From positions 3,782,001-3,846,000 of the forward strand of contig NZ_CP114287.1 of NCBI RefSeq assembly GCF_027111295.1: a stretch of DNA of 64,000 nt, in the 5' to 3' direction. Every line of letters starts with the position of its first letter. Position 1 is the first letter of the stretch. Made by a program: the position numbers and the translations under genes. This document shows positions 30,101 to 45,040 of the stretch, piece by piece. Under the pieces are notes generated by a model, which searched no databases, had not been told where the DNA came from, and saw only the letters and a list, made by a program, of their open reading frames with translations. The DNA is from Flavobacterium gelatinilyticum (lineage in GTDB: Bacteria; Bacteroidota; Bacteroidia; Flavobacteriales; Flavobacteriaceae).

Positions 30101-30530
30101 TGCAGATCAGATTAATCAGTTGGACAAGCAGGGAACGCTGGATATTGTTATTGCCGGAAATAATGTAACTTTATCATTAGAAGACGTCGAAATTACATCG
30201 CAGGATATCGAAGGATGGTTAGTTGCGAATTCAAACGGAATAACAGTTGCGCTTGATATTACACTTACCGAAGAATTAAAAAATGAAGGTATCGCAAGAG
30301 AATTAGTAAACAGAATTCAGAACATTCGTAAAGATTCAGGATTTGAAGTTACGGATAAGATTAAAGTTCAAATAAAAAGAGACGGTATTTTAGAAGAAGC
30401 TGTTTCAAAAAATGAAGACTATATTAAGTCTGAGACACTAACAGATAGCTTAACTTTTGCTGACGCTCTGGAAAACGGCACAGAAATTGAGTTTGATGAT
30501 ATTAAAACAATGATATTAATTTCAAAATAG
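27129..30530 (+). CDS. ileS: isoleucyl-tRNA synthetase
   Basis: 1133 residues, class I synthetase. The HIGH motif appears as GLPGIHHVMARAIKD, the KMSKS loop as GIKMSKSKGN, and the editing domain threonine-rich segment as AWTTTPWTLPSNTAL. The tRNA-binding helical part has WIISELHSLIKFVDE and ENLSNWYVRLCRRRFW. The C-terminus matches the long eukaryotic-like IleS type found in Bacteroidota, longer than the about 940 residues of E. coli IleS, and lacks the final zinc-binding Cys cluster. It charges tRNA-Ile in the cytoplasm. It is followed by a DksA-like gene only 7 bp away. Confidence 0.96.
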   Translation: MSTKFTEYKGLDLPTVASEVLDFWKKENIFEKSVTTREGAEPFVFFEGPPSANGLPGIHHVMARAIKDIFCRYKTQKGFQVKRKAGWDTHGLPVELGTEKELGITKEDIGKTISIEEYNEACKKTVMRYTDVWNDLTEKMGYWVDMEDPYVTYKPKYMESVWWLLKQIYDKGLLYKGYTIQPYSPKAGTGLSSHEVNQPGAYRDVTDTTIVAQFKTLPETLPSFLQGFGDIHILAWTTTPWTLPSNTALTVGPKIDYVLVKTFNQYTFEPINVVLAKNLVGKQFGKGFFLSEDDADFDNVKNGDKKLPYKILTEAKGADLVEIRYEQLLPYVLPYENAENAFRVISGDFVTTEDGTGIVHTAPTFGADDAKVAKEAKPEVPPMLVLDENGTPVPLVDLQGKFTSHLGDLAGKYVKNEYYDAGQAPEKSVDVEIAIRLKEENKAFKVEKYVHSYPHSWRTDEPLLYYPLDSWFIKVTDVKDRMFDLNETINWKPKSTGEGRFGNWLKNANDWNLSRSRYWGIPLPIWRTEDKTEEVIIGSVEELYNAIEKSIEAGFQKENPFKGFEIGNMSETNYDLIDLHKNVVDGLTLVSASGKPMKRESDLIDVWFDSGAMPYAQWHYPFENKEKIDDNKDFPANFIAEGVDQTRGWFYTLHAIGTLVFDKIAYKNVVSNGLVLDKNGIKMSKSKGNTIDPFKTIAENGPDATRWYMIMNANPWDNLKFDLEGIAEVKRKFFGTLYNTYSFFSLYANIDGFKYAEAEIPLNERPEIDQWIISELHSLIKFVDECYEDYEPTKATRAISDFVQENLSNWYVRLCRRRFWKGEYAKDKIAAYQTLYTCLLTISKLSAPVAPFFMDKLYRDLTTSTGSEDFASVHLAEFPKFVENFVNKTLESKMQKAQTISSLVLSLRKKEMIKVRQPLQKVMIPVLDENQRAEIEAISDLVKAEVNVKEIELLDDASGILVKQIKPNFKALGPRFGKDMGLISKEIQGFSADQINQLDKQGTLDIVIAGNNVTLSLEDVEITSQDIEGWLVANSNGITVALDITLTEELKNEGIARELVNRIQNIRKDSGFEVTDKIKVQIKRDGILEEAVSKNEDYIKSETLTDSLTFADALENGTEIEFDDIKTMILISK

Positions 30531-30537
30531 TTATAAA

Positions 30538-30918
30538 ATGATAGATGAAATTACAAGGTACTCTGATGCAGATTTAGCAGAGTTCAAAGAAATAATCCAG
30601 GCAAAAATAAAAAAAGCACAGGAAGATCTTGATTTGATCAAAAGTGCCTATATGAACGATTTGAATAACGGAACTGACGATACTTCTCCAACTTTTAAAG
30701 CTTTTGAAGAAGGAAGTGAGACCATGTCAAAAGAAGCAAACTCACAGTTGGCTATCAGACAAGAGAAATTCATTCGTGACTTAAAAAATGCCTTATTCCG
30801 TGTTGAAAATAAAACATACGGTATCTGCAAAGTAACGGGTAAATTAATCAGCAAAGAAAGGCTTAAAATCGTTCCTCATGCTACAATGAGTATCGAAGCT
30901 AAAAACTTGCAGAGATAA
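30538..30918 (+). CDS. TraR/DksA family regulator lacking zinc cysteines
   Basis: 126 residues. The coiled-coil part (EFKEIIQAKIKKAQEDLDLI) and the GTDDTSPTFKAFEEGSETMSKE region, with acidic tip residues, match DksA-like proteins, as does the end YGICKVTGKLISKERLKIVP. Only one cysteine remains of the usual C4 zinc finger. This degenerate finger is common in flavobacterial members. DksA-type proteins bind the secondary channel of RNA polymerase and tune transcription with ppGpp. Tightly linked to ileS, so cotranscribed. Confidence 0.88.
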   Translation: MIDEITRYSDADLAEFKEIIQAKIKKAQEDLDLIKSAYMNDLNNGTDDTSPTFKAFEEGSETMSKEANSQLAIRQEKFIRDLKNALFRVENKTYGICKVTGKLISKERLKIVPHATMSIEAKNLQR

Positions 30919-30940
30919 TAAAAAAAATACTCAAAATAAG

Positions 30941-30964
30941 CGCTCCTTTCAGGGGCGTTTTTTT
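30941..30964 (+). terminator. terminator of ileS-dksA operon
   Basis: CGCTCC (30941-30946), loop TTTCA, GGGGCG (30952-30957) with one G-T pair, then seven T. Confidence 0.8.
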
Positions 30965-30970
30965 GTTTAA

Positions 30971-31096
30971 TGTTTTAGTGATTCAGGTATTGGCGCGAAC
31001 GATGCTGTTTTGGGAGAATTTGATTACAAAGTAACAGCCGTCCTGAAAAAAGAAGTTTTTCTTTTTGTAAGAAAGGTAAAAGGAGGAAATAAGTGA
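30971..31096 (+). pseudogene. possible remnant of a lost gene (41 codons, no start)
   Basis: After a stop at 30968 an open frame of 41 codons runs to TGA at 31094-31096, reading ...SGIGANDAVLGEFDY then KVTAVLKKEVFLFVRKVKGG. Its composition and hydrophobic pattern look protein-like, yet it has no ATG. It may be the tail of a gene removed by deletion. Weak call. Confidence 0.25.
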
Positions 31097-31108
31097 GAAT
31101 AAAATAAA

Positions 31109-31148
31109 TTAAATTAGAACTGCCCGTTTTCAGGCAGTTCTAATTTAA
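31109..31148. terminator. terminator of roadblock pair, locus 1
   Basis: Perfect 16-bp stem, 31109-31124 with 31133-31148, loop CGTTTTCA, ten bases beyond the end of the leftward roadblock B gene. Confidence 0.75.
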
Positions 31149-31157
31149 ATGAAAAAT

Positions 31158-31538
31158 TTAAGCAAGATTTTTTTCCAGATCAGCTTTGTGCTTTCTTAAT
31201 ACAGCTCTTGTCATTCCAAGATTTGCTTTAGCAGAATCTGCTGCAAGGTAAATCATGAATTTTTTGTTTGGCGAAATGTCAATAATGTGAATTTGATTTG
31301 AAAGCGTAATCAGGATATCTTCGATGTCCTGGTTTAAGTTCAAAGCTTTTACGGCATTCAGTTTTGCTTTTACAACTTCTAAGTTATAAGCCGCTGCCAG
31401 CTCAGGATCAAAGGCAGGATCGATGGTTATATTTCCAAAGCTCAATCCTGATTCAATTTCTGTTACTGCTACTGCTATAAAGCCGTTTACGTTTGTTTTC
31501 ATTTCATTCAAAAACACGTTTAAAAAGTCGTTGCTCAT
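31158..31538 (-). CDS. roadblock/LC7-like protein B, locus 1
   Basis: 126 residues, cytoplasmic, no signal. The predicted order of helix and five strands matches the roadblock/LC7 fold: an N-terminal helix FLNEMKTNVNGF, strand IAVAVTEIESG, middle helix AAAYNLEVVKAKLNAVKAL, strands DILITLSNQIHIIDI and KFMIYLAADS, and a last helix NLGMTRAVLRKH. Its close paralogue lies at 43200 (shared PELA-AYNLEVVKAKLNA-KAL, KANLG-TRA-L). It follows protein A by 33 bp, so the two are probably cotranslated and may form a heterodimer. Roadblock proteins regulate small GTPases such as MglA, none of which is nearby. Confidence 0.7.
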   Translation of the reverse strand: MSNDFLNVFLNEMKTNVNGFIAVAVTEIESGLSFGNITIDPAFDPELAAAYNLEVVKAKLNAVKALNLNQDIEDILITLSNQIHIIDISPNKKFMIYLAADSAKANLGMTRAVLRKHKADLEKNLA

Positions 31539-31571
31539 AGTTTTTGGAATTAGGGTGGTTAAAAGATTATG

Positions 31572-31928
31572 TTATTTTAAAAGGGAATTTTTGCTGAGTT
31601 CAGTCGACAGTTCTTCTGTTGAATGCATTAGCAGGCCTAAATTACTGCCTTCTTTTGAAAAAACAATAACAAAATTAGAACCGCTTATTTTATTGCCAAT
31701 TATAACACCTTCAGAACTTTTTAAATAAAGTTGTTTCAAGGAGCCTTTTTCAAGGTCAATTAAAAATTTTTCGCTCATGGATAAAATTGCGGCACTCATA
31801 GCGGCAATGCTGTCGCCGTAGTCAAGGTTCAGAGAAGTGATTAATTTTCCTTTTCCATTTAAGATTAAAGCAGCGCTTGCTTTAGTGTTGACCAAAAAGT
31901 TGTTTAGAATAGTAGTTATTTCATTCAT
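31572..31928 (-). CDS. roadblock/LC7-like protein A, locus 1
   Basis: 118 residues with the roadblock pattern: SAALILNGKGKLITSLNLDYGD, central helix IAAMSAAILSMSEKFL, GSLKQLYLKSSEGVIIGN and the end NLGLLMHSTEEL. Its counterpart at 42846 shares N-L-Y at the first loop, an AAM-ILxM helix, the G-LKQ turn, and a GLL ending, so the pair is paralogous though diverged. Cytoplasmic. First gene of the leftward pair, with a TATATTTG box about 100 bases upstream on its strand. Confidence 0.68.
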   Translation of the reverse strand: MNEITTILNNFLVNTKASAALILNGKGKLITSLNLDYGDSIAAMSAAILSMSEKFLIDLEKGSLKQLYLKSSEGVIIGNKISGSNFVIVFSKEGSNLGLLMHSTEELSTELSKNSLLK

Positions 31929-32026
31929 ATTTGTAGGATTAGGGAAAGTGTTAAAATTAATTCATTTTTAGCAGTGTTTCTGGGTTTTGTTGTGTTTTGC
32001 TCTAAACAAGTGTTAATTTTTATTAA

Positions 32027-32034
32027 CAAATATA
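32027..32034 (-). promoter_or_regulatory. -7 box (TATATTTG) for roadblock pair, locus 1
   Basis: Reads TATATTTG on the - strand, 99 bases before the ATG of protein A. Confidence 0.55.
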
Positions 32035-32104
32035 ATTTAAAATATGTATTATTGTAAAAGCAAATCGTTAAATATTTAATTTTTTTACTTAAAAAACTTA
32101 CACA

Positions 32105-32311
32105 ATGGCTAAAGTATTGAAATTCAAAGATGTGAATTCTGATGTTGAACACAGAATGAAAGAATTCGAAAAATTACGCGTCAGGTTCAAAGCTGATGTA
32201 AAGAAGGCTGAAGCCAAAAGAGCAGCAGCCGGAAAAGAAAGTAAAGGCATCTTTAAATCCATTTCGGATTTCTTTTCAGACAGCCCTGCAAACGATGCCA
32301 AAAAGAAATAA
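32105..32311 (+). CDS. small basic protein beside roadblock pair, locus 1
   Basis: 68 residues, rich in Lys, Ala and Asp. A helical, amphipathic first half (DVEHRMKEFEKLRVRFKADV) is followed by an Ala/Lys helix and a short hydrophobic tail (KGIFKSISDFFSD). No domain is known to me. It is divergent from the roadblock pair. The very small gene next to the second roadblock pair ends in a similar KG(F)FKKI tail, which suggests a common origin or function as a membrane-binding amphipathic helix. Conserved reading frame, starting just after an AT-rich leader; a terminator follows at 32369. Confidence 0.65.
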   Translation: MAKVLKFKDVNSDVEHRMKEFEKLRVRFKADVKKAEAKRAAAGKESKGIFKSISDFFSDSPANDAKKK

Positions 32312-32368
32312 TTCCATAACAGCTTCAAACGAAATACATTCGCATATTTAAATTACAAAACAATTAAC

Positions 32369-32388
32369 GCTCCCTCGGGGGCTTTTTT
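32369..32388 (+). terminator. terminator of the 68-residue gene
   Basis: GCTCC (32369-32373), tetraloop CTCG, GGGGC (32378-32382) with one G-T pair, then six T. Confidence 0.8.
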
Positions 32389-32431
32389 GTTGATTAAATT
32401 ATTACTTTTGCGCATCCAAAAAAATTATAAA

Positions 32432-33028
32432 ATGTCATTACGAAAAGCGTATCTCCTTATATTTTTAGTATTAATTATCGATCAACTCTCAAAAATCTAC
32501 GTAAAAACAAATTTTGTTTTGGGTGATGAAGTTGTAATTTTTGACTGGTTTAGAATTCATTTTATCGAAAATGAAGGCATGGCCTGGGGAACAAAAATTC
32601 CGGGAGCATACGGAAAATTAATTTTGACTGTTTTTAGAATCTTTGCCGTATTCGGAATTGGGTATTGGTTGGCAGATGCTGTAAAAAAACGTCATTCAGC
32701 TTATTTGATTGTTTCAATAGCTTTGATACTCGCCGGAGCAGCAGGAAATATTATTGATTCTGTTTTTTATGGTGTAATTTTCGACGACAGTACACATAAT
32801 CTTGCAACACTATTTTCTTCGGAGCCTTACGGAACATGGTTTCATGGTCTAGTTGTAGATATGTTTTACTTTCCTATCTGGGAAGGTGAGCTTCCGTCAT
32901 GGATGCCCTTTTTTGGAGGAAAACATTTTATGTTCTTTAATGCTATTTTTAATGTTGCCGATATGGCAATTTCTACCGGAGTCGGAATTTTATTAGTATT
33001 TAATAAACGAGCGTTTCCAAAACATTAA
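32432..33028 (+). CDS. lspA: lipoprotein signal peptidase II
   Basis: 198 residues from ATG 32432; a TTG 45 bases earlier lies in the terminator and is rejected. Four membrane segments. The two catalytic aspartates are in the conserved boxes GAAGNIIDSVFYG and FNVADMAIS; VVDMFYFP is also typical. It cleaves the signal peptide of diacylglyceryl-prolipoproteins in the inner membrane. The window encodes several of its likely substrates, such as the YfbK-like, DUF3298 and SusD lipoproteins. In relatives it follows ileS and the dksA-like gene directly; here three genes intervene. Confidence 0.94.
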   Translation: MSLRKAYLLIFLVLIIDQLSKIYVKTNFVLGDEVVIFDWFRIHFIENEGMAWGTKIPGAYGKLILTVFRIFAVFGIGYWLADAVKKRHSAYLIVSIALILAGAAGNIIDSVFYGVIFDDSTHNLATLFSSEPYGTWFHGLVVDMFYFPIWEGELPSWMPFFGGKHFMFFNAIFNVADMAISTGVGILLVFNKRAFPKH

Positions 33029-33054
33029 TAAAAATTTAGAATCGATAAAATTTT

Positions 33055-33112
33055 AAATTCCAAATACCAATATTCTTTGCAATAAAAGAGAAGATGCTGG
33101 TATTTGGAATTT
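33055..33112 (+). terminator. terminator of lspA
   Basis: Perfect 15-bp stem AAATTCCAAATACCA (33055-33069) with 33098-33112, 28-nt loop, T-rich tail. Built from the same word family as the stems at 2011 and 17211. Confidence 0.75.
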
Positions 33113-33193
33113 TTATTTTTTAGAATTTGAAAGTTTCACATTATTGGGATTTGATATTATTGTACTATTTTTACAATACAAAAACCAAAGCTT

Positions 33194-36100
33194 ATGCAAA
33201 GTCCGTCTTTCTCTATTTATGATGCTTCTGCAGGATCAGGAAAGACCTATACTCTGGTAAAAGAATATCTGAAAATTATTCTTTCGTCTCCCAAAAACGA
33301 TGCGTACCGGAATATTTTAGCAATAACCTTTACCAATAAAGCGGTTCACGAAATGAAAAGCCGTATTGTGGGAAGTTTGTCTGAATTTGCCAAAGACGAA
33401 CCTTCGGCAAAAGCAGTGGATTTAATGGAGGATTTGTCGCGCGATACAGGTCTTTCGGTTATACAGCTAAAAGTAAAATCCCAAAACATCATCAAGCACT
33501 TAATTCATAATTATGCAGCTTTTGATATTTCGACCATTGATAAATTTACGCATAAAGTTATCAGGGCTTTTGCTCATGATCTGAATCTTCCTATGACTTT
33601 TGACGTTACGCTGGATACTGAAAATCTTTTGGTAGAGGCCGTAGATGCTATTATTGCTCAGGCAGGCCAGGATGAAACACTGACCAAACTGCTGATCGAT
33701 TTTACAATGGAGAAAACCGATGACGATAAAAGCTGGGATGTTTCGAGAGAAATCTTAGAAACAGGACGTTTGGTTTTGAATGAAAATAACCGAAATGAAA
33801 TTCTTCATTTTAATGATAAAACAATTGAAGAATTTGTCGAGATAAAAAAGAAAATGCTGGTTTTGTGCAAGGACCTCGAAGCCGAAAATGAGCAGTTTGC
33901 AATTGAAGCACTTTCGTTGATAGATCAAAACGGAATTGATTTGAAATCTTTTTCGAGAGGTACATTTCCAAATCACCTGGAAAATATTCGTGACGGTAAA
34001 TTTAATCCAAGAAATAAAACTTTTCATGAATTCGATGATATTGCGATAAATAAAACGGCCAAAGACCGCGCGATTATTGAAAGTATTATTCCTGAGTTAC
34101 TCCAGATGTTAGTGAAGATTTATAAGAATTTTGAAAAAAGAGATTTTTATAAAGCCTTTCTCAAAAATATTACACCGCTCTCTTTATTAAATACAGTCAG
34201 CAACGAACTTGCTAAAATTCAGTCAGAACAAAATGTTCTTTCTATATCAGAGTTTAATGCTATTATTCACCGCGAAATTCAGAACCAGCCTGCACCTTTC
34301 ATTTATGAGCGTCTGGGCGAGCGTTACCGGCACTTTTTTATAGATGAATTTCAGGATACGTCCGAAATGCAGTGGCATAACCTGATTCCGCTTATCGATA
34401 ACTCTCTTTCAGGTTTGGATGATTTTGGAAATAAAGGAACTCTAATGATTGTAGGCGATCCAAAGCAGTCTATTTACAGATGGCGCGGCGGAAAAGCGGA
34501 GCAGTTTATCGAATTAAGCAAAGATGTGAATCCGTTTGTAAATCCGGATAAAGTCATTAAACATTTAAATACCAATTACAGAAGTTACAGTGAAGTAATT
34601 GAATTTAATAATGCGTTTTTTAAACTGATTTCTTCTGAATTTTCAAACGATGATTATAAAGATTTATACGAGAATCATAGTTTTCAGAATACCAATTCAA
34701 AAAAAGGCGGTTATGTAAATATTTCATTTCTTCCCATTATAGAAAAAAATGAAGCTGACGATGAAGATCCGGTTGAAAAATCAGATTTGTACGTTTTAGC
34801 AACGCTGAATACGATTCAAAAAGTTCTCAGGGAAGGTTTTGAATATAAAGATATCGTAATTCTGACCCGAAAAAGAGGGCAGGGAGTCGCGATCGCTAAT
34901 TATTTAACCGAACAGAATATTCCGCTTTTGTCTTCAGAAACATTAATGATTCAGAATGCGACAGAAGTGCGACTTATAATTCATCTTCTGAAATATTTAA
35001 ATAACGGTGCCGATTTAGAATCCAAGGCTTATTTTTTAAATTCCCTCGCTAATAGCTTAAAACCCGAAATTCCGGTACATGATTTTATTGCGCTTGGAAT
35101 GTCGCATAAAATTGAAGAAGAATTTGAAAAATGGCTTCAGACTTTTGATGTTTCGCTTTCTTTTGAAAATGTCCGCAAAAAATCACTTTACGAAGCTGTT
35201 GAAATTATTATTTCAAAATTCATACTTCCGTCAGAAGGAAATGCTTATGTGCAGTTTTTTCTTGATATTGTTTTGGAGCGCGATATGAGAAACCAGGCCG
35301 GAATTGCCGACTTTTTGGTGTATTGGGATAAGAATTCGGAAAAATTCAGCATTCCGTCGCCCGAAGGCAATAATGCAGTTCGTATTATGACCATTCACAA
35401 ATCAAAAGGTTTGGAATTTCCGGTTGTAATTATGCCTTTTGCAGAAGAAGATTATAATAGAAAGCCAAAAGATAAACTCTGGCTGGATACAGAAGAATCA
35501 GATCTTGGTGTTCCAAAAGCATTAATTGATAACAGCAGTGCAGTGGAAGGTTTTGGCGAAAGTGCCGCAGTTGTTTTTAATTCAAAAAAGCAGGAAGAAT
35601 TACTGGATAATATAAATGTTTTATACGTAGCACTAACCCGTGCAGAAGAACAGCTTTACATTATTTCGCAAGCTTTAAAAGAAAGAAAAGATGGAGAACT
35701 GCCTAATAATATGGCTTCTTATTTTATTAAATATCTGATCCACAAAGGAAATTATGAGCCTGAAATTTTAGAATACGAATTTGGGAATAAAACCCGGCTT
35801 TCAAAATCAGAAAAAACAGTTGATCTGGTAAAAACAATTCCTGTTGTAAAAGAAGTGCTTGATCCTAAAAATATAAAAATTGCCCAGCGTGAAGCTCTTA
35901 TGTGGGGAACACATCAGCAGGAGGCAATTTCGTATGGTAACATTGTGCATGAAATTCTGGCTTTTGTAAAAGATGAATCAGATGTAGATCTGGCACTCAC
36001 AAAAGCATTGGAAAACGGATTGATTACTATGGAACAGTCTGAAAAAGTATTGAAAACACTCCGGGATATAGTAACACATCCTGAACTGAATATATGTTTT

Positions 36101-36349
36101 AATGGAAAGTATAAAATTTTGAACGAACAGACAATAGTTCAAAAAGAAGGCAAGATTCTAAAACCGGACCGGGTTGTATTGACAGATAGTAAAGAAGCTT
36201 ATCTGCTGGATTATAAAACTGGTGCCATAAATCCAAAATACAAACAGCAAATTCAGGAATATCAAGATGCTGTTGAGGATTTAGGATATAAAGTGTTAAA
36301 AAGGGTTTTGGTATATATAGGATCGGAAATTGAAGTGGTAAATTTGTGA
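33194..36349 (+). CDS. AddA/RecB-like UvrD helicase with nuclease domain
   Basis: 1051 residues. All UvrD helicase motifs are present: Walker A DASAGSGKTYTLVKEYL, motif II FIDEFQDTSEMQW, motif III GDPKQSIYRWRGG, NYRSYSEVIEFNN, motif V MTIHKSKGLEFPVVI and motif VI LYVALTRAEEQLY. The C-terminus is a RecB-type nuclease with YGNIVHEILAF, and LDYKTG preceded by VVLTD. This matches the AddA subunit of AddAB double-strand break resection. The partner AddB is encoded about 3 kb downstream on the same strand, after kbl and ompA. The protein acts on DNA ends, and RecA loading follows. Confidence 0.9.
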   Translation: MQSPSFSIYDASAGSGKTYTLVKEYLKIILSSPKNDAYRNILAITFTNKAVHEMKSRIVGSLSEFAKDEPSAKAVDLMEDLSRDTGLSVIQLKVKSQNIIKHLIHNYAAFDISTIDKFTHKVIRAFAHDLNLPMTFDVTLDTENLLVEAVDAIIAQAGQDETLTKLLIDFTMEKTDDDKSWDVSREILETGRLVLNENNRNEILHFNDKTIEEFVEIKKKMLVLCKDLEAENEQFAIEALSLIDQNGIDLKSFSRGTFPNHLENIRDGKFNPRNKTFHEFDDIAINKTAKDRAIIESIIPELLQMLVKIYKNFEKRDFYKAFLKNITPLSLLNTVSNELAKIQSEQNVLSISEFNAIIHREIQNQPAPFIYERLGERYRHFFIDEFQDTSEMQWHNLIPLIDNSLSGLDDFGNKGTLMIVGDPKQSIYRWRGGKAEQFIELSKDVNPFVNPDKVIKHLNTNYRSYSEVIEFNNAFFKLISSEFSNDDYKDLYENHSFQNTNSKKGGYVNISFLPIIEKNEADDEDPVEKSDLYVLATLNTIQKVLREGFEYKDIVILTRKRGQGVAIANYLTEQNIPLLSSETLMIQNATEVRLIIHLLKYLNNGADLESKAYFLNSLANSLKPEIPVHDFIALGMSHKIEEEFEKWLQTFDVSLSFENVRKKSLYEAVEIIISKFILPSEGNAYVQFFLDIVLERDMRNQAGIADFLVYWDKNSEKFSIPSPEGNNAVRIMTIHKSKGLEFPVVIMPFAEEDYNRKPKDKLWLDTEESDLGVPKALIDNSSAVEGFGESAAVVFNSKKQEELLDNINVLYVALTRAEEQLYIISQALKERKDGELPNNMASYFIKYLIHKGNYEPEILEYEFGNKTRLSKSEKTVDLVKTIPVVKEVLDPKNIKIAQREALMWGTHQQEAISYGNIVHEILAFVKDESDVDLALTKALENGLITMEQSEKVLKTLRDIVTHPELNICFNGKYKILNEQTIVQKEGKILKPDRVVLTDSKEAYLLDYKTGAINPKYKQQIQEYQDAVEDLGYKVLKRVLVYIGSEIEVVNL

Positions 36350-36430
36350 AAAAATTAATCAGATGTTAAAGGAATAACGAAGCTTTTTTATGGTTAAGTT
36401 GTTAATATTTAACGTTTTAAATAGTTAAAA

Positions 36431-37624
36431 ATGTACGGTAAAATTAAAGAACATCTGCAAAGTGAGCTGCAGACAATTGAAGAAAATGGAATTTTCAAAA
36501 AAGAGCGAATTATAACATCAGCTCAGGGTGCCGAAATTACGATTTCGACAGGCGAAACAGTTTTAAACTTTTGTGCTAATAATTATTTAGGTCTTTCATC
36601 TCATCCTGAAGTAGTTCAGGCAGCTAAAGATGCAATGGATACACATGGCTTCGGGATGTCGTCTGTACGTTTTATCTGCGGGACTCAGGATATTCATAAA
36701 ACATTAGAAAAAAAGATAGCTGACTTTTATGGTACAGAAGATACTATATTATATGCTGCAGCTTTTGACGCGAACGGAGGGGTTTTTGAACCTTTATTAG
36801 GGGAGAACGATGCCATAATTTCAGACAGTTTAAACCATGCTTCTATTATTGATGGAGTTCGTTTGTGTAAAGCAGCGCGCTACCGCTACGAAAACAGCAA
36901 TATGGAAGATCTGGAACAGCAGTTGATAAAAGCTAATGAAGCCGGTGCCCGTTTTAAACTTATTGTGACAGATGGTGTATTTTCAATGGATGGTTTAGTA
37001 GCACCGTTGGATAAAATCTGTGATCTTGCTGATAAATACGATGCCATGGTGATGGTTGACGAATGCCATGCTGCTGGATTTATTGGTGCAACCGGAAAAG
37101 GAACTCTTGAGGCAAAAGGGGTTATGGGGCGTGTTGATATTATTACAGGAACTCTTGGTAAAGCTTTAGGCGGTGCAATGGGAGGATATACAACAGCCAA
37201 AAAAGAAATCATTGAAATACTTCGCCAGCGTTCAAGACCTTATTTATTTTCAAATTCACTTGCACCGTCTATTGTAGGGGCTTCTATTAAAGTTTTTGAA
37301 TTGCTGGAAAAAGATACTGCTCTTAGAGATAAGTTAGAGTGGAATACGAACTACTTTAAGGAAGGAATGAAAAAAGCAGGTTTCGATATTATCGATGGAG
37401 ATTCAGCTATTGTACCGGTTATGCTGTACGATGCAAAGTTGTCTCAGGTAATGGCAAATGAACTTTTAAAGCAGGGTATATACGTGATTGGATTTTTCTT
37501 TCCTGTGGTTCCAAAGGATAAAGCGAGAATCAGAGTACAGTTGTCTGCAGCCCATACCAAAGAACATTTAGACAAGGCAATCGAAGCATTTATATTAACA
37601 GGTAAAATGTTAAAAGTTATATAA
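36431..37624 (+). CDS. kbl: glycine C-acetyltransferase
   Basis: 397 residues, the normal family length. Alpha-oxoamine synthase motifs are clear: [44 protein letters not shown] and the PLP lysine in [14 protein letters not shown]. It links glycine and acetyl-CoA to 2-amino-3-ketobutyrate, working with threonine dehydrogenase to break down threonine. No tdh is nearby. Other members of the family (BioF) have different substrate loops; the N-terminus [10 protein letters not shown] and the R-S-R segment favour Kbl. It lies between addA and ompA with 81 bp upstream. Confidence 0.93.
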
Positions 37625-37670
37625 TTACCACGTTTAGTGCTTTTTTGTAGGTTTTTTTTAACATTTGATT

Positions 37671-37700
37671 TTGTATTTAAAAAATTTGGTGTTACTTTTG
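37671..37700 (+). promoter_or_regulatory. strong promoter of ompA
   Basis: TTG at 37671-37673, 19 bp, then TACTTTTG at 37693-37700. Both elements match the Bacteroidota pattern with good spacing. Leader about 31 bases. Confidence 0.75.
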
Positions 37701-37737
37701 CTTGTAATTAACTAAATTGTAATTAAAAAAATTAAGT

Positions 37738-39204
37738 ATGAAACATCTTAACAAACTTTTAGTTGCTGTGATGATGGCGATGGGTTTAAGTTCTCACGCG
37801 CAAGACAGTAACAATCCATGGGCGATCTCTTTTGGGGTTAATGCCGTGGATACAAGGACTAGTGCAAGTCCAGAGCATGTAGATTTTTTCCCGGCACACT
37901 TTTCTCAGCCATTTGATGTAAAAGGAAACTGGAATATCCTTCCTTCTTTATCTTACATTGGTGTGTCTAGATACGTTGGAAGCGGTTTCTCTGTAGGTTT
38001 ACAGGGGTCTGTTAACAAAATCGACAAATTTGTTGTTTTTGACCCAACTGCTGCTGGTCATGATGCAAGAGGTATGGTTGTAGAGAATCCAGGTGACTTA
38101 ATGTACTACGGAATTGATGCTACTATCAAATACAGCTTCAAAGAATTAATCAAATCTAAAGTGATTGATCCTTCGTTATCTGTAGGTGGTGGTTATACTT
38201 TCTTCGGAGATAGCAGCTACGGAACTGTTAACCCAGGTGCTGGATTAACTTTCTGGTTTACTGATGCTATTGGTCTTGAATTAGCTACAAGATACAAATG
38301 GTCAGTTAGTGGAGACAGAGTAGATGCAGCTGGTGTTCCAGACGCTCCATCTCACTTCCAACACACTGCTGGTTTAGTTTTCAAATTCGGAGGTAAAGAT
38401 ACTGACGGAGACGGAATCTATGACAAAGATGATGCTTGTCCAGATGTTGCTGGTCTAAAACAATTCAACGGATGTCCTGATACTGACGGTGACGGAATCG
38501 TTGATGCTTCAGATGCTTGTCCAAACGAATTTGGTTTAGCTGCATTAAACGGATGTCCTGATAGAGACGGAGACGGTGTTGCTGACAAAGATGACGCTTG
38601 TCCAGATGTTGCTGGTTTACCTGCTTTAAAAGGTTGTCCTGATACTGACGGTGACGGAATCGCTGACAAAGATGACAAATGTCCTACAGTTGCTGGTCCT
38701 AAAGAAAATGGTGGTTGTCCTTTCTTAGACGCTGATAAAGATGGTGTTTTAGATAAAGATGATGACTGTCCTACAGTTCCAGGTCCTGCAAGTAACAGAG
38801 GATGTCCAGAAGTAACTTCTCAAGCATTAGAAGATCTTAAAGTTCAAGCTAGAGCAATCTACTTCAACTCTGGAAAAGCTACTTTCAAAACTGGTGACAA
38901 AGAAACTCCAGCTAGATTAGACGCTATTAAAGAAATCCTTAAAAACTACCCTAACGCTAAATTCAGCATCGAAGGACACACAGATAGTACAGGTTCTGCT
39001 AAAGTAAACCAAAAACTTTCTGAAGATAGAGCTAACGCTGTATTAAACGCTTTAGTTGAAAGAGGTGTTAACGCTGAAAACTTAGAAGCTAAAGGATTTG
39101 GATCTTCTCAACCAGTTGCAAGTAACAAAACTGCTGCAGGTAAAGCACAAAACAGAAGAACTGAAATTAAACACGTAGGTTCTAAATTCCAAGGTAAACT
39201 ATAA
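37738..39204 (+). CDS. OmpA family protein with thrombospondin type 3 repeats
   Basis: 488 residues. A signal peptide ends SHAQ; residues 25-215 form an eight-strand-like barrel; residues about 220-358 hold five calcium-binding TSP3 units (DTDGDGI, then [10 protein letters not shown] and similar); the last 120 residues are the OmpA peptidoglycan-binding domain ([10 protein letters not shown], and LSEDRANAV with the conserved Asp and Arg). Codons are strongly biased (GGT, AAC, CTG-poor, GCT), as in highly expressed genes, unlike the neighbours. It anchors the outer membrane to the cell wall. Clear promoter and terminator make it monocistronic. Confidence 0.93.
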
Positions 39205-39227
39205 TTTACTTTGTAAATAATATTGAA

Positions 39228-39257
39228 AAGCCATTCTTAATTGAATGGCTTTTTTTA
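39228..39257 (+). terminator. terminator of ompA
   Basis: AAGCCATTC (39228-39236) with GAATGGCTT (39243-39251), then T residues. It ends 11 bases before the addB ATG at 39268. Confidence 0.85.
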
Positions 39258-39267
39258 TTTTTATCAA

Positions 39268-42030
39268 ATGATAGATAATTCTTTTTTAGGGAAAATTGCA
39301 AAAGTTGTAATCGAAAATTATTCAGAGAAACTTACTGAAACTACGATCATTCTGCCAAATAAAAGAGCAAAGGTTTTTTTAATTGAAGAGCTTAAAAAAG
39401 AAACAAATAAAACTATTATTTCTCCAAACATTATAAGTATTGAAGACTTTGTACAGGATGTTGCATCAATACGATCTATAGATTCGATTGAACTGTTGTT
39501 TGAGTTTTACGAAGTTTATTTATCTGTAACAGAAAAACAGCATCAGCAGACTTTTGAATTATTTGCCAATTGGGCAAAAACACTGCTTCAGGATTTTAAT
39601 GAAATTGACCGCTATCTTCTTGAACCAAATCACGTTTTATCTTACCTGAAAGATATTGAGGATATAAAAAAATGGGGAATAGAAGTAGAAAACAAAACAA
39701 AACTTCTTGAAAATTATATCGACTTCTGGAAACTGCTTCCGCTTTATTATACTTCCTTATACGAGCATTTACTGAATAAAGGAATTGGTTATCAGGGATT
39801 AATTTACAGGGAAGCCGTAAATAACCTGAATCATTTTTCGAATACTATTTCGGGGCTGAATTTTATTTTTGCCGGATTTAATGCGTTGAATGCAGCCGAG
39901 GAAAGAATTGTGCAGCATCTTTTGGCATTGGATCAGGCTAAAATCTATTGGGATTCTGATCAGGTATTTTTAAATGACCCTTATCATGATGCGGGGCTTT
40001 TTGTACGCCGATTTAAAGAAAGCTGGAAACATTATAAATCACATCCTTTTGAGTGGATTGTAGATGATTTTTCGCAGTCAAAAAATATTCAGGTAATCGG
40101 TACGCCAAAAACCATAGGTCAGGCTAAACTTGCTGGAAGTATAATTGAAAATTTAATTAATGAAAATCCCGCAGAATCTCTGGATAAAGTTGCGGTTGTT
40201 TTAGGAGAGGAAAATTTATTAATTCCTGTTTTATATTCGCTTCCGTCTTCGGTTGGGGCACTTAATATTACGATGGGATATTCCGGAAAAAATAACCCTT
40301 CTCAAATATTGGTGGCGAAGTTTTTTAAAATGCATACCAACGCGCTTTCACGTGCGGGAGAAAGTTATGTGTTTTATTATAAAGATGTTTTGGATATTCT
40401 GACACATCCTTTGGTAGAGCCGTATGCGAACTGCAGTCATCTGGTGAGGATAATAAAAGAGAATAATTATACTTTTATTACACTGAATAAGATTTTGGAG
40501 CTTAATCCGGATCCTTCCAGAATGTTTTCTTTATTATTTCAGAAATGGGACAAAGGATCGATCGCGGTTCTTGAAACTATTTCGGCGCTTTTACTTTTAA
40601 TAAAAGAAAATTTCAGCAATGATAATCAGGAAGAAAAAATAGCTAAGACTTTTGTTTATGCTGTTTTTAAAGTGATAAACAAGCTCATTAATTATTATTC
40701 ACAGCACAATCATATTGATAATATTAATACACTCCATGCGATTTATAAACAAATCATAGATGTGGCCGAAGTTTCGTTTGAAGGAGAACCGTTACGGGGG
40801 CTTCAGATTATGGGGGTTCTGGAAAGCCGTGTGCTTGATTTTGAAACCGTGATTGTAACTTCGATGAATGAAGGCAAATTTCCGGCAGGAAAATCTCAGA
40901 ATTCATTTATTCCGTATGATGTTAAAAAAGAATTAGGACTGCCGACTTTCAAGGAGAAGGATGCTATTTATACCTATCATTTTTATCATCTGCTGCAAAG
41001 GGCGAAAAACATTTACCTTGTTTATAACACCGAAAACGACGGGCTTGATGCCGGGGAACGAAGCCGTTTTATAACGCAGCTTGAAGTTGAAAAACAAAAA
41101 AATCACAATCTCACTTTTGATATTTATAATCCTGTTTTGCCTGCAACAGCTTATCAGCCTATGGTGATTCCGAAATCGGAGGCTGTTTTGGAAAGACTGC
41201 GCGAAATAGCGGCTGCAGGATTTTCTCCATCGGCATTAACGAGTTATATCCGAAACCCGATCGATTTTTATTTTCAAAAAATTCTCCGAATACGTGAAGT
41301 AGAGGAAGTAGAAGAAAATATTGCTTTGAATACACTCGGGACGATTATTCACGAAACATTAAAAGCTTTATATGAGCCTTTTATTGGCAGGTTTATTTCG
41401 GAAACAGATCTTTTAAATTGTTTCAAATTACTCGATGATGAAGTTTTGAAACAATTCAGGTTGGTTTACAAAGAAGGAGAAATTAAAAAAGGCCGTAATC
41501 TTTTGGCTTTTGAAGTTGCAAAACGTAACGTTTTTAACTTTTTAAAAATGGAGCTGGATTCTTTGAAAAACGGCGATGCTGTTAAAATCATTGCATTGGA
41601 ACAGACTTACCAGAGAGAACTCGAACATCCCGGTCTGCCTTTTCCGGTTTTAATTAAAGGAAATGTTGACAGAATCGAACTTAGAAACGGCAGAATCAGA
41701 ATTATCGATTATAAGACCGGAAAAGTCGAAAAAACAAACGTAGTTCTTAAATCCTGGACCGGATTAACTCAGGAGCTTAAAAACGACAAAATAATTCAGG
41801 TTTTAGCTTATGCTTATATGTTCGAAAATGAAGCAGGAGATGTACCTGTTGAAGTTGGAATTATTTCGTTTAAAAATCTTAAGTCAGGATTTCTTCCTTT
41901 TGGTTTTAAAGAAGAAAAAGACATGGAAGTTATTGTAAGTAAGGTAATTCTGAAAAGTTATCTGGAAGAAATTGTCTTGCTTTTAAGTGAAATATTCAAT
42001 CCTGAAATTCCATTTGAAGAAAAAATCTAA
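39268..42030 (+). CDS. AddB-like PD-(D/E)XK nuclease family protein
   Basis: 920 residues from ATG 39268; an earlier TTG lies in the ompA terminator. The N-terminal half has a degenerate helicase fold with no Walker A (ETTIILPNKRAKVFLIEELK at the start; FIFAGFNALNAAEERI). The C-terminal nuclease is intact: FSPSALTSYIRNPIDFYFQK, GTIIHETLKALYEP, and IIDYKTGK with VDRIELR before it. This is the usual AddB pattern. It lacks the four-cysteine iron-sulfur cluster seen in Firmicute AddB. It probably pairs with the AddA-like protein encoded at 33194. Confidence 0.87.
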   Translation: MIDNSFLGKIAKVVIENYSEKLTETTIILPNKRAKVFLIEELKKETNKTIISPNIISIEDFVQDVASIRSIDSIELLFEFYEVYLSVTEKQHQQTFELFANWAKTLLQDFNEIDRYLLEPNHVLSYLKDIEDIKKWGIEVENKTKLLENYIDFWKLLPLYYTSLYEHLLNKGIGYQGLIYREAVNNLNHFSNTISGLNFIFAGFNALNAAEERIVQHLLALDQAKIYWDSDQVFLNDPYHDAGLFVRRFKESWKHYKSHPFEWIVDDFSQSKNIQVIGTPKTIGQAKLAGSIIENLINENPAESLDKVAVVLGEENLLIPVLYSLPSSVGALNITMGYSGKNNPSQILVAKFFKMHTNALSRAGESYVFYYKDVLDILTHPLVEPYANCSHLVRIIKENNYTFITLNKILELNPDPSRMFSLLFQKWDKGSIAVLETISALLLLIKENFSNDNQEEKIAKTFVYAVFKVINKLINYYSQHNHIDNINTLHAIYKQIIDVAEVSFEGEPLRGLQIMGVLESRVLDFETVIVTSMNEGKFPAGKSQNSFIPYDVKKELGLPTFKEKDAIYTYHFYHLLQRAKNIYLVYNTENDGLDAGERSRFITQLEVEKQKNHNLTFDIYNPVLPATAYQPMVIPKSEAVLERLREIAAAGFSPSALTSYIRNPIDFYFQKILRIREVEEVEENIALNTLGTIIHETLKALYEPFIGRFISETDLLNCFKLLDDEVLKQFRLVYKEGEIKKGRNLLAFEVAKRNVFNFLKMELDSLKNGDAVKIIALEQTYQRELEHPGLPFPVLIKGNVDRIELRNGRIRIIDYKTGKVEKTNVVLKSWTGLTQELKNDKIIQVLAYAYMFENEAGDVPVEVGIISFKNLKSGFLPFGFKEEKDMEVIVSKVILKSYLEEIVLLLSEIFNPEIPFEEKI

Positions 42031-42373
42031 CCGGGATCTGCTTTTTAAAAAGCGGTAATTTTTTCACCGATAAACAAAACAGCACTTTTTTTAGTTTAAA
42101 TTGGAGTATTCAATCTGTTTCAGATTAAAAAATTACCTGTTTGTTTAATGGGAAATGAAGCTCTGCAATAGCAGAAAGGATTTTTTAGATTGAAAAAAGG
42201 GAATGTTACATTGAATATTTTTACGACTTACCGATTTAACTGACTCTTGAAATTTTATCTGAATAATTGAAAAATCTTGTAGAGAATATAAAATAAGTTA
42301 TCTGTTAAAATTGTAATCCTGATTTGGAAAGAATCTATTTACAGATAAAAATATAATTGGCATAACATAAAGG
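42031..42373. other. gene-free stretch after addB
   Basis: No gene is supported. A weak hairpin (CTGCTTTT with AAAAGCGG) at 42041-42058, followed by T-rich sequence, may end addB transcription. The rest is AT-rich and without a motif I can name. Confidence 0.4.
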
Positions 42374-42414
42374 AAAAAGGTGCAATAATTAATCTATAAT
42401 TATTGCACCTTTTT
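42374..42414. terminator. bidirectional terminator facing the 47-codon gene
   Basis: Perfect 18-bp stem, 42374-42391 with 42397-42414, 5-nt loop, starting with five A and ending with five T. It lies 12 bases past the stop of the small leftward gene and therefore supports expression of that gene. Confidence 0.88.
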
Positions 42415-42425
42415 GTAAGTGGTTT

Positions 42426-42569
42426 TTAACTAAATATTTTTTTGAAGAAGCCTTTTTTAACTTGTTCCGGAGAATTCGGATTGTTAATTGGTCCGTTTTC
42501 AAATCGAAATCTTCTAAACTTCATCAGCTTTACATTTAAGTCAAAGCGTAATTCATCAACTGTTTTCAT
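42426..42569 (-). CDS. small basic protein beside roadblock pair, locus 2
   Basis: 47 residues from ATG 42569, reading MKTVDELRFDLNVKLMKFRR... and ending VKKGFFKKIFS. The frame is open to 42608, but a TAAATTTG box on the - strand at 42591-42584 means transcription starts inside that extension, so the short form is chosen. A perfect terminator lies just past the stop. The product is very basic, with a hydrophobic-basic tail. Its tail resembles KGIFKSI of the 68-residue protein next to the other roadblock pair. No domain known. Confidence 0.6.
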   Translation of the reverse strand: MKTVDELRFDLNVKLMKFRRFRFENGPINNPNSPEQVKKGFFKKIFS

Positions 42570-42583
42570 CGGAAAATTTTTTG

Positions 42584-42591
42584 CAAATTTA
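42584..42591 (-). promoter_or_regulatory. -7 box (TAAATTTG) for the 47-codon gene
   Basis: Reads TAAATTTG on the - strand, 15 bases before the ATG at 42569. It decides the start codon. Confidence 0.6.
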
Positions 42592-42818
42592 CGAAAAACA
42601 TCCAGCAAAATAAGGGAATGGCAAATGTTAATTTAAATATTGAGTTTTATGGATCAAAATGTTTGAATTTTGATAATATATCTTTTTTCTGTTAAATTTT
42701 TTTAAATATTTTCTTTTAAAAAACGGGATTAATTGTACTATAAATAAAAGTGATTCAGCTAGTTGTGTCTTGAGTTTTTTTTAACAAGTGTTTAGGGATC
42801 ATTTTTATTTTTTACAAA

Positions 42819-42826
42819 TAACTTTG
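42819..42826 (+). promoter_or_regulatory. -7 box (TAACTTTG) for roadblock pair, locus 2
   Basis: Full TAnnTTTG match, 20 bases before ATG 42846. Confidence 0.6.
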
Positions 42827-42845
42827 ATCTTTTAGAATAAAATTA

Positions 42846-43172
42846 ATGTATATGGTTGATTTAAATACGCTGGTAGAAGAAACAGGGGCAGAGTCGGGAA
42901 TTACTTTTAATATTGACGGAATTTTAATGGAATCTGTTAATTTAGAATACGATGGAAACGTGGCTGCAATGATTGGGATGATTTTGAAAATGTGTCTTGA
43001 AATGTCAGAAGATGTTAATAATGGAGATTTGAAGCAGGTAATGATCAAAAACAACGACGGAATTGTGGTGGCAAACAAAGATCAGGATGATAACTGTGTG
43101 GCGCTTCTTTCTAAAGATATTAGCAAAATGGGACTTTTGCTTAGAAAAATGGATACGATTTTTAATAATTAA
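42846..43172 (+). CDS. roadblock/LC7-like protein A, locus 2
   Basis: 108 residues; ATG 42846 or the one at 42852. The pattern ITFNIDGILMESVNLEYDG, the helix VAAMIGMILKMCLEMSED, GDLKQVMIKNNDGIVVAN, VALLSKDISKMGLLL is that of a roadblock/LC7 protein. It corresponds to the A protein of locus 1 in order and in sequence. Cytoplasmic. Followed by B after 27 bp. No GTPase partner gene is nearby. Confidence 0.68.
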   Translation: MYMVDLNTLVEETGAESGITFNIDGILMESVNLEYDGNVAAMIGMILKMCLEMSEDVNNGDLKQVMIKNNDGIVVANKDQDDNCVALLSKDISKMGLLLRKMDTIFNN

Positions 43173-43199
43173 TTTTAAACCAAATTTTATATATAAAAC

Positions 43200-43574
43200 A
43201 TGTCAGATTTTTTACAGAATTTTCAAAATGATTTAAGAGAGAATGTTAGCGGATTTATTGCGGTTTCAGTAACTGAAGTTGAGACAGGAATGTCTTACTG
43301 TTCGCTTTCTGTAAATCCGGATTTTGACCCGGAACTAGCTTCTGCTTATAATTTAGAAGTTGTAAAAGCAAAATTAAACGCTATTAAAGCTTTGGGATTA
43401 ACTCAAAAAATCAACGATATTTTAATTACATTGACAGATCAAATACATATTTTAGATGTTTCTGAAGATGGAAAATACTTTATTTATTTAGCAGTTGACA
43501 GTAATAAAGCAAATCTTGGATTAACAAGAGCTACTTTGTCTAAATTCAAAAAAGACATTATTACGAAACTATAA
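43200..43574 (+). CDS. roadblock/LC7-like protein B, locus 2
   Basis: 124 residues, close paralogue of the locus 1 B protein: both have FDPELA-AYNLEVVKAKLNA, DILITL-QIHI-D and KANLG-TRA. The fold order (helix, strand, helix, strands, helix) matches roadblock/LC7. High conservation of the central helix suggests a dimer interface under constraint. Second gene of the pair; a terminator follows at 43594. Confidence 0.7.
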   Translation: MSDFLQNFQNDLRENVSGFIAVSVTEVETGMSYCSLSVNPDFDPELASAYNLEVVKAKLNAIKALGLTQKINDILITLTDQIHILDVSEDGKYFIYLAVDSNKANLGLTRATLSKFKKDIITKL

Positions 43575-43593
43575 TTTTTGCCCCCAAAATGAA

Positions 43594-43635
43594 GAAAAGG
43601 CTGTTCCACTTATGCGGAATGGCCTTTTCTGCTTT
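43594..43635 (+). terminator. terminator of roadblock pair, locus 2
   Basis: GAAAAGGC...TTCC (from 43594) pairs with GGAA...GCCTTTTC (to 43629), with two mismatched positions, followed by T-rich sequence. Confidence 0.7.
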
Positions 43636-43649
43636 TATGAATTATCTTT

Positions 43650-44426
43650 TTATTTGAAGAATTCTAATAATACGGCTTTTAGTTCTTCTTTGTTTTCGAT
43701 CTGGCTCATATGGCCGTCATCAAAAGAAGCTAATTGAACGGAAGTCCCTTTAATTTGCGGCAGACTTTCTTCGTAGTTTAAAACCGTATCTTTTTTGCCT
43801 AAAATTAAAAGTACAGGAAATAAATCTTTGCGCAGCAGTTCTTCTCTGTCTTTTCTTATTTTCATTCCTTCCAGCGAGGCTATAATTCCCTGTAAAGGTG
43901 TTTTTAAGGCTTCGGCTTTTGCTTTTTCAATTTCTGAGGCTAAACGTGTTCTGTTGTTTTCGCTGAACAAATTGCCAATAGCAAGACTCACGAAGTTTGT
44001 ATAATTCTGTTTGACAGCCTTTATGGCTCTTGTTCTGTTTGTTTTTTTCTCTTCACTGTCTTCTTTAGAAGTAGAATTGAGCAGAACCAGTTTTTGGATT
44101 TTCTTCGGGAATAATTCGGCGAAAGCCAAACCAACATAACCGCCCATTGAATGCCCCAGAATGATTGCTTTTTCGATATTTAAGTTTTCCAGAACTTTGT
44201 TAACTGCTTTGGCATTGTCTTCCATTTCATGAACATAACCCAGAGAATCTGATTCGCCATGACCTAATAAATCGACGGTAATAACACGGTATTTTTTTGA
44301 AAATAAATCAACATAGTCTGTCCACATTTTTTTGTTTTCTAAAAAACCGTGCAGTAATACGATTGCTGTTCCTTCACCAGAATCGGTAAAAGATATTTTG
44401 GTGTTTTTGTAAAGTACTTGATTCAA
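43650..44426 (-). CDS. alpha/beta hydrolase, TTG start
   Basis: About 258 residues. The frame has no ATG at its start; a TTG at 44447 overlaps a TATTTTTG promoter box, so I place the start at the next TTG (44426), giving NQVLYKNTKISFTDSGEG. The oxyanion motif is LLHGFLENKKMW, the nucleophile elbow GHSMGG, the acid is probably the Asp in GKKDTVLN and the His is in DDGHMSQIENKE. It belongs to the broad hydrolase/esterase class; the substrate is unknown. It directly follows the sigma-factor gene on the same strand. Confidence 0.85.
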   Translation of the reverse strand: MNQVLYKNTKISFTDSGEGTAIVLLHGFLENKKMWTDYVDLFSKKYRVITVDLLGHGESDSLGYVHEMEDNAKAVNKVLENLNIEKAIILGHSMGGYVGLAFAELFPKKIQKLVLLNSTSKEDSEEKKTNRTRAIKAVKQNYTNFVSLAIGNLFSENNRTRLASEIEKAKAEALKTPLQGIIASLEGMKIRKDREELLRKDLFPVLLILGKKDTVLNYEESLPQIKGTSVQLASFDDGHMSQIENKEELKAVLLEFFK

Positions 44427-44444
44427 AATGGAAAATTTAAATAA

Positions 44445-44452
44445 CAAAAATA
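44445..44452 (-). promoter_or_regulatory. -7 box (TATTTTTG) for the hydrolase
   Basis: Reads TATTTTTG on the - strand, ending at 44445. It lies just before the TTG chosen as the start and overlaps the end of the sigma gene spacer. Confidence 0.55.
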
Positions 44453-44454
44453 CG

Positions 44455-44997
44455 CTATTTTATCAGCCAGATGAAATATAAGATAAAATTTAAGAAGGAG
44501 CTTTTTTGAGATTCTCTCAAGGATGCATACGCTCTTTTCATTTGAGTTTTTACCGTGTTTATTGAGATATTCTGGTTTTCTGCAATTTCGGCATAGCTTA
44601 ATCCTTCAACAACATGGGATATAAAAATTTCTCTTCTGGCCTGCGGAATCTTTTCGACTAAAGTCTGAATTTTAGGCTTTTTGTTTTCTTCGATGTTTTC
44701 AAATGCAATTTGTTCTTCGGCTTTTGGAACAGCTATTTTTTTGGTTTGTAAACTGATGGTTTTGTTTTTTTCTACATATTGAAGGCTTAAATTTTTTACT
44801 GCTTTTGCTCCGTAAGCTTTAAATGAAACGGTAAAGTTTATGGCTTCTTCTTTTTCCCATAAATAAATAAAAAAATCCTGAACAATATCTTTCGCTGTGT
44901 GTTTGTCCTTGACTATGCTAAAGGCAGTCAAAGAAAAAAACACAAAATGCTCTTTGTATAAGGCTTCAAATATTTTTAAATCTTTATGATTTACCAT
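44455..44997 (-). CDS. ECF RNA polymerase sigma factor, FecI-like
   Basis: 180 residues with region 2 (ALYKEHFVFFSLTAFSIVKD, AKDIVQDFFIYLWE) and region 4 (RREIFISHVVEGLSYAEIAE and SINTVKTQMKRAYASLRE). The last 15 residues are hydrophobic (FLNFILYFIWLI), as often seen in Bacteroidota ECF sigma factors. It directs RNA polymerase to a few promoters, most likely those of its own system, controlled by the FecR-type protein. Here the sigma gene is divergent from fecR rather than cotranscribed with it, which is less usual. A TACATTTG box lies 44 bases upstream. Confidence 0.88.
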   Translation of the reverse strand: MVNHKDLKIFEALYKEHFVFFSLTAFSIVKDKHTAKDIVQDFFIYLWEKEEAINFTVSFKAYGAKAVKNLSLQYVEKNKTISLQTKKIAVPKAEEQIAFENIEENKKPKIQTLVEKIPQARREIFISHVVEGLSYAEIAENQNISINTVKTQMKRAYASLRESQKSSFLNFILYFIWLIK

Positions 44998-45040
44998 CTA
45001 AAAAATAACATTTATTGTTTTGTAATGGATTGTATAGTGT

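Follow-up and report, generated by a model that had tools for sequence, protein, structure and literature searches.

In Myxococcus xanthus, MglC joins RomR to the roadblock protein MglB, and MglA at the front is reported to break this complex (PMC10329633); structurally, an MglC homodimer is described as being sandwiched between two MglB homodimers (PMC7949163). Layered roadblock dimers are also attributed to the Ragulator (LAMTOR2/3 and LAMTOR4/5) by the same source (PMC7949163). Many MglB homologues are uncoupled from mglA, 328 of 749 by one reported count (PMC4316618), which states that no orphan MglB had been characterised as of 2014; a later report connects an orphan mglB (mglB-3) of Snodgrassella, a bacterium that has mglA, with motility and colonisation (PMC11112851). 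Here, we describe two copies of a two-gene cassette in a 64,000-nucleotide stretch (the window; NZ_CP114287.1, positions 3,782,001-3,846,000) of the 5.83-Mb, single-contig genome of Flavobacterium gelatinilyticum, in which a roadblock gene (A) is followed by a second small gene (B), and which is best read, from sequence comparison, as an MglB/MglC-like pair. We found no description of such a pair in Bacteroidota in the titles and abstract openings of the relevant open-licence literature that we searched.

The two tandem pairs are intact and point away from each other. A1 (31572..31928, 118 amino acids) and B1 (31158..31538, 126 amino acids) form the pair on the minus strand, from 31928 to 31158, and A2 (42846..43172, 108 amino acids) and B2 (43200..43574, 124 amino acids) form the pair on the plus strand, from 42846 to 43574, with A-to-B spacings of 33 and 27 bp, respectively. 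The positions of the open reading frames (ORFs) bear out an earlier sequence-only reading of this DNA with respect to the gene pairs, their coordinates, the A-then-B order and both gaps. That reading also took the B proteins for close paralogues and the A proteins for diverged ones, and we agree: B1 and B2 share 63% identity over 119 amino acids (E 1e-57) and A1 and A2 share 35% over 98 amino acids (E 4e-19), both far above chance, so that the cassette as a whole is duplicated.

Protein A belongs to the roadblock family, as judged from its profile matches. A1 matches the Pfam family Robl_LC7 (PF03259) with an E value of 8.1e-8 (32.3 bits, above the cut-off of 23), while A2 lies slightly below that cut-off (E 2.8e-4, 21 bits). 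In the PDB, A1 matches the roadblock structures 7f8m, 9jue_D, and 3leq, the last of which is CvnB5. A profile built from eight A relatives (A5), seven of which match Robl_LC7 at E 0.01, returned 37 PDB sequences with E values no higher than 1; most of these are named as LAMTOR2, MglB, roadblock or dynein light chain proteins, and one is CvnB5. The profile covers positions 23-122 of the MglB chains, which contain 160 amino acids and are hence longer than A1 and A2.

Protein B is probably a member of the roadblock superfamily as well, and MglC-like within it. A profile built on 18 diverse members of the B family (A6) retrieved M. xanthus MglC (7ct3) from the PDB as the top match, with an E value of 8.5e-5 and a runner-up at 0.4, and its positions 10-121 align with positions 4-113 of MglC, i.e., along the length of that protein. 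In a second selection of 16 rows (A9), MglC was the sole credible match (E 6.6e-4, runner-up 0.34). The residues G27, G103, and R106, named as conserved features of MglC (PMC7949163), align with Gly in 18 of the 18 B rows, Gly in 10, and Arg or Lys in all 18, respectively. LAMTOR5 is matched by two of the 18 members (best E 4e-5). At the level of single families, B1 has no Pfam family above the cut-off and B2 has none at all, neither matches a family in NCBIfam, and PF03259 matches neither of them at E 10 nor any of the 18 B members at E 0.1. The assumption of the sequence-only reading that all four proteins are of roadblock type is thus upheld by the Pfam search for A, with A2 slightly below the cut-off and tied to A1 by its identity, but not for B, for which the family profile finds MglC instead.

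Several results weigh against the relation of B to MglC. A PDB search with B1 as a single sequence gave no credible match, and a Flavobacterium-only profile (A7, 37 B1 orthologues plus B2) found neither MglC nor anything else credible in the PDB; the link between B and MglC therefore depends on the distant members of the family. The LAMTOR5 matches share their table with chance-looking families. Direct hhalign comparison of A with B is weak (8% and 16% in two comparisons), although it still exceeds two negative controls (0.4% and 1.6%). The surface motif FDI of MglC (F25, D26, and I28), which is reported to serve MglB binding (PMC7949163, PMC10329633), is not kept as such: at this position B1 and B2 have I/V-E-(S/T)-G-L/M with one residue inserted before the Gly, a sequence similar in kind but not identical, and its Glu is not conserved across the wider B family. 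Set beside the M. xanthus system, the cassette has a like composition of one roadblock protein and one probable distant roadblock paralogue of ~120 amino acids, and every B row has residues that correspond to the turn glycine and the basic residue of MglC; it differs in the shorter A proteins, the altered FDI motif, the lack of a detected MglA, and the adjoining of A and B in one putative operon.

We found no MglA-type GTPase in the window or in the remainder of the genome by searches with a CvnD-like query and with the Roc and Arf families. The CvnD-like query from L120 reached an E value of only 0.132 against the own genome. This query (A3) is of the CvnD-like kind and includes an L124 row with a probably false N-terminal extension. 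At 1e-8 it could fail to detect other groups of MglA. The genome gave 23 Roc and six Arf matches, none within the range of the window. Three of the Roc matches lie in frames shorter than 240 amino acids, namely a 60-amino-acid frame with a stop and two ORFs that presumably encode TsaE-like and EngB-like proteins, and the Arf matches all lie in frames of at least 336 amino acids. None of the Roc or Arf matches falls in a frame resembling a small MglA GTPase, as judged by viewing the ORFs at three loci (L235, L238, and L245) and by frame length for the rest. The idea that the GTPase is situated merely beyond the window edges was rejected on the basis of these whole-genome searches; the earlier statement that the 64 kb encode none agrees with them, and no MglA-type GTPase was found genome-wide either. 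In a survey of 395 genomes of the phylum, the GTPase was found in 10 at 1e-8 and in none of the own genus (20 genomes listed). The cassettes resemble the reported orphan MglB proteins, including Snodgrassella mglB-3, in having a roadblock gene without an adjacent mglA (PMC4316618, PMC11112851). They differ in that the roadblock gene is paired with a gene for an MglC-like partner, that the pair is present twice, and that no MglA was found in the whole genome, whereas Snodgrassella is described as having mglA (PMC11112851).

We surveyed 199 Flavobacterium genomes; most of the named loci considered in this work are from close relatives, and hence the counts are not independent. B is present in 45 genomes and A in 37, with 94 and 63 matches, respectively; one of the B matches (G439) is a fragment located where a contig ends. 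B lies directly downstream on the same strand in 61 of the 63 A matches, and the exceptions are the second loci of two genomes: in G400 a stop lies within A2, and in G025 (L136 15594-16104) A2 is intact and only a C-terminal remnant of B2, about the last 25 codons, is left, which counts against the explanation favoured below. Conversely, no A was found for 33 of the 94 B matches. A thus goes with B, yet B is often solitary, and the earlier view that the pair is conserved as a unit is correct from the side of A and fails from the side of B. Two pairs are present in 24 genomes; in 23 of them they point apart with a spacing of 11.3-12.3 kb, as in the window, and in G452 they are 3.3 Mb apart. Another 13 genomes have a single pair. 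The 80 named loci returned for B1 belong to Flavobacterium, apart from three unplaced Flavobacteriaceae and one labelled [Flexibacter]; A1 is situated 26-40 bp ahead of B1 in 79 of them, and the A frame is broken in L082. Further pairs exist at other genomic sites (L130/L134 and L132/L133) and in a second genus (L125), indicating that the pair is kept while its neighbours change.

The genome of F. gelatinilyticum contains a third B gene (G000:C1:4818778-4819149; L117 8775-9203), with no A found upstream or beside it; it is followed by a 151-amino-acid ORF, presumably for a zinc-ribbon-like protein. We also noted five B genes in G166, in groups of two and three (L119 8309-10593 and L118 7259-8088), with no A found in either stretch, and a B gene in G175 (L122 8090-9229) closely followed by genes for 101 and 150 amino acids that have no Pfam match; by eye, the end of the 101-amino-acid protein resembles that of A. 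A tree of B was built from 71 of 127 distinct sequences, with the rows L006-L085 thinned to one in ten, over 110 columns; only 20 of its 68 inner branches are starred, and its deep order was therefore not used. It contains a B1 group (100/99), a group of solitary B genes that includes the L094 and L113 pairs (98/93), and a weaker B2 group (90/93). The grouping of solitary B genes with these pairs points to a loss of A in the solitary lineage.

Outside the genus, B is present in 10 of the 25 B-bearing genomes of the phylum survey. Three of these 10 have B within or next to a cluster of roadblock and GTPase genes, with the gene order Robl-X-GTPase-B in L124 (G280), a B gene plus a receiver-B fusion adjoining Robl-X-GTPase in L120 (G005), and the order Robl-GTPase-protoglobin-B in L156 (G388). 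Two others, G088 (L125) and G328 (L277), carry an A-B pair, and the stretches viewed around it contain no GTPase; G328 has a Robl-GTPase locus elsewhere (L157). For the other five genomes, the loci that we viewed showed no A in the vicinity of B. Each of nine further GTPase loci has a roadblock gene nearby, and one of them (L156) also has B. The fusion in L120 (8679-9500) joins a receiver domain (PF00072) to a B domain, a parallel to the binding of MglC by RomR in Myxococcus. Robl_LC7 occurs in at least 32 of the 395 genomes, 12 of the own genus and 20 of distant lineages; this count is a lower bound, since Robl_LC7 misses the A of G088. Tandem roadblock genes ~0.4-0.6 kb apart were seen in distant Bacteroidota (G001, G079, G125, G133, G237, and others). 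The pair resembles the Streptomyces conservons (CvnA-D) through the likeness of A to CvnB5 and because the GTPase-coupled relatives L120 and L124 run Robl, an unknown X, and a small GTPase together. It is unlike them in that such a GTPase was not found in this genome and that no kinase gene lies beside either pair, and we know of no conservon counterpart of B. Given the roadblock-GTPase clusters with B in three distant genomes, the pair plausibly stems from a GTPase module, from which either the GTPase may have been lost or the pair alone may have been transferred.

The two A proteins differ at the β1-β2 turn. The residue before the turn Gly is Lys in all 68 distinct A1 sequences and Asp in all 26 distinct A2 sequences; six other A sequences from Flavobacteriaceae have Asp (three), Asn (two) or Lys (one). 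All 11 genes from GTPase-coupled relatives have Asp at this position; nine were taken from the alignment and two (L120 and L124) were read separately, as their rows were cut before the turn. The L277 pair has Asp as well. An Asp-Gly pair is reported for MglB of Groups 2-5, with the Asp predicted to be near MglA (PMC4316618), and the MglB-binding FDGI of MglC and the LAMTOR5 contact are placed in the β1-β2 turn (PMC7949163). Compared with the Asp of the relatives, the Lys reverses the charge at the expected contact site in A1. On the other hand, A2 keeps the Asp though no GTPase was found, so that this Asp may also be structural, which counts against the explanation favoured below.

Purifying selection acts on A1 and B1, as estimated from pairwise sequence comparisons. 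The median ratio of nonsynonymous to synonymous substitution rates (dN/dS) is 0.066 for A1 (75 sequences, 1126 pairs) and 0.038 for B1 (81 sequences, 2354 pairs), values that are rough since the median dS is near 1 for both, and 0.017 for a DksA-like neighbour (65 sequences, 2002 pairs). The comparison was restricted to sequence pairs with a dS of 0.1-1.5.

Both pairs share an upstream palindrome. The candidate operator TTAACACTTGTTTAG lies upstream of A1 (32002..32016, minus strand) and TTAACAAGTGTTTAG upstream of A2 (42781..42795, plus strand). We grouped upstream regions by protein-defined class and considered the 200 nt next to the start: the core AACANNTGTT is present there in 78 of 84 distinct A1 regions, 28 of 28 distinct A2 regions, and one of 19 others. 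The arms of the A1 palindrome are constant and the centre varies (CT 56, AT 12, GT 9, and TT 1). When up to one mismatch is allowed, TTAACA-NN-TGTTTAG has two occurrences in the window, each lying a short way upstream of an A gene and oriented like it, against an expectation of 0.27, and five of 100 shuffles reached two or more. A genome-wide search for TTAACA-NN-TGTTTA gave four sites, of which two belong to these pairs; the other two, at 528774 and 1968982 (L218 and L219), near genes that we take to be thioredoxin/efflux-like and peroxiredoxin-like, were regarded as chance, as a reversed control pattern also gave two. The solitary third B has no AACA-NN-TGTT core within 320 nt. Retention of the palindrome suggests a regulator, and the shared motif can be explained by common descent of both promoters.

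Terminator-like hairpins follow B1 (31109..31148, minus strand, 18 pairs, -25.1 kcal/mol, z -8.60) and B2 (43593..43630, plus strand, 15 pairs, -23.5 kcal/mol, z -4.54). Such a hairpin behind each pair fits two separate two-gene operons. Between the two pairs lie two large genes (33194-36349 and 39241-42030), separated by two unrelated genes; we take them to encode a UvrD/RecB-like helicase and an AddB-like nuclease protein.

On these grounds we moderately favour the reading that an MglB/MglC-like pair has been uncoupled from its GTPase and duplicated, and now forms two specialised roadblock scaffolds that work independently of a GTPase. Each cassette would be a two-gene operon for an MglB/CvnB-like roadblock protein and an MglC-like protein, and the pair would descend from, or have been transferred out of, a module that once held a small GTPase. 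In Flavobacterium it would work without an MglA-type GTPase, the dimers of A and B stacking via the β1-β2 turn into a scaffold and B being able to act alone. An old duplication would have produced A1B1 and A2B2, which kept a common candidate operator while the turn diverged to Lys in A1 and Asp in A2. As the switch normally served by MglB and MglC was not found in the genome, the pair probably has its own job, and the divergence of the turn implies that A1B1 and A2B2 probably bind different clients. The homology of A, the conservation and duplication of the pair, the failure to find a GTPase, the upstream palindrome and the turn residues are observations, whereas the fold of B, a physical contact of A with B, a function independent of a GTPase, and the clients are inferred. 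The obligate A/B heterodimer proposed in the sequence-only reading is not needed, since B is often alone and MglB and MglC are described as homodimers that stack, with MglC between MglB dimers (PMC7949163). A link to gliding or secretion, also proposed there, finds no backing in the distribution, as B is present in one of 12 listed genomes of the same family outside the genus; genes for gliding and type IX secretion are widespread in Flavobacteriaceae. A role in gliding is possible but unsupported.

Layered dimers of this kind would recall the Ragulator, and the A profile finds LAMTOR2 while two B relatives match LAMTOR5; the Ragulator, however, is eukaryotic and serves Rag GTPases, and the likeness is weak and at the level of the superfamily. 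A more detailed proposal, which we offer tentatively and regard as rather unlikely, comprises two insulated GTPase-free scaffolds alongside a lone MglC-like protein. The two pairs would share one kind of operator and owe their specificity to the turn charge, forming a Ragulator-like platform that would be switched by an input other than a small GTPase, e.g., a receiver domain upon phosphorylation or an ATPase of the ParA type.

Two other explanations appear unlikely to us. The pair might still regulate an ordinary or very divergent GTPase of the cell encoded elsewhere, such as Obg, Era, Der or HflX, in keeping with a general role of roadblock proteins in regulating nucleoside triphosphatases (NTPases) as put forward in PMC4316618. 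P-loop proteins with Roc or Arf matches do exist in the genome. In two other Flavobacterium genomes the pair lies near one gene, presumably Obg-like, which adjoins it in L134 and is one gene off in L130; however, in neither genome does this gene share the strand of the pair, and other pair sites are beside unrelated genes. GTPases of the Obg, Era, Der, and HflX types are near-universal, whereas B and A occur in 45 and 37 of the 199 genus genomes, respectively. We find it similarly improbable that another NTPase or signal input, e.g., an ATPase of the ParA/MinD type or a response regulator, uses the pair as a platform. ParA/MinD-like genes near B in L123 (9315-10145), L156 (5263-6327), L277 (7486-8481), and L281 (6554-7417) and the receiver-B fusion in L120 point this way, as does the A-B pair of L277, which is accompanied by such a ParA-like gene with the genome's GTPase lying elsewhere; but these links rest on a few distant genomes, and no such gene adjoins either window pair (29000-46000 viewed). 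That the pairs are decaying, functionless relics is very improbable: the B2 remnant in G025, the A2 stop in G400, the broken A frame in L082, and the patchy distribution would fit, but the low dN/dS of A1 and B1, the near-constant retention of B behind A at differing genomic sites, and the conserved palindrome argue otherwise.

The GTPase-independent scaffold remains our preferred explanation. The part of the system that resembles the MglB/MglC scaffold appears to persist in Flavobacterium, while the switch was not found. Flavobacterium johnsoniae is a species with good genetics, and as A1-B1 is present in a strain of that name (L025), the question of a scaffold without a GTPase could be tested there. 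Roadblock proteins have mostly been regarded as GTPase regulators, and this pair would make roadblock function without a GTPase directly testable.

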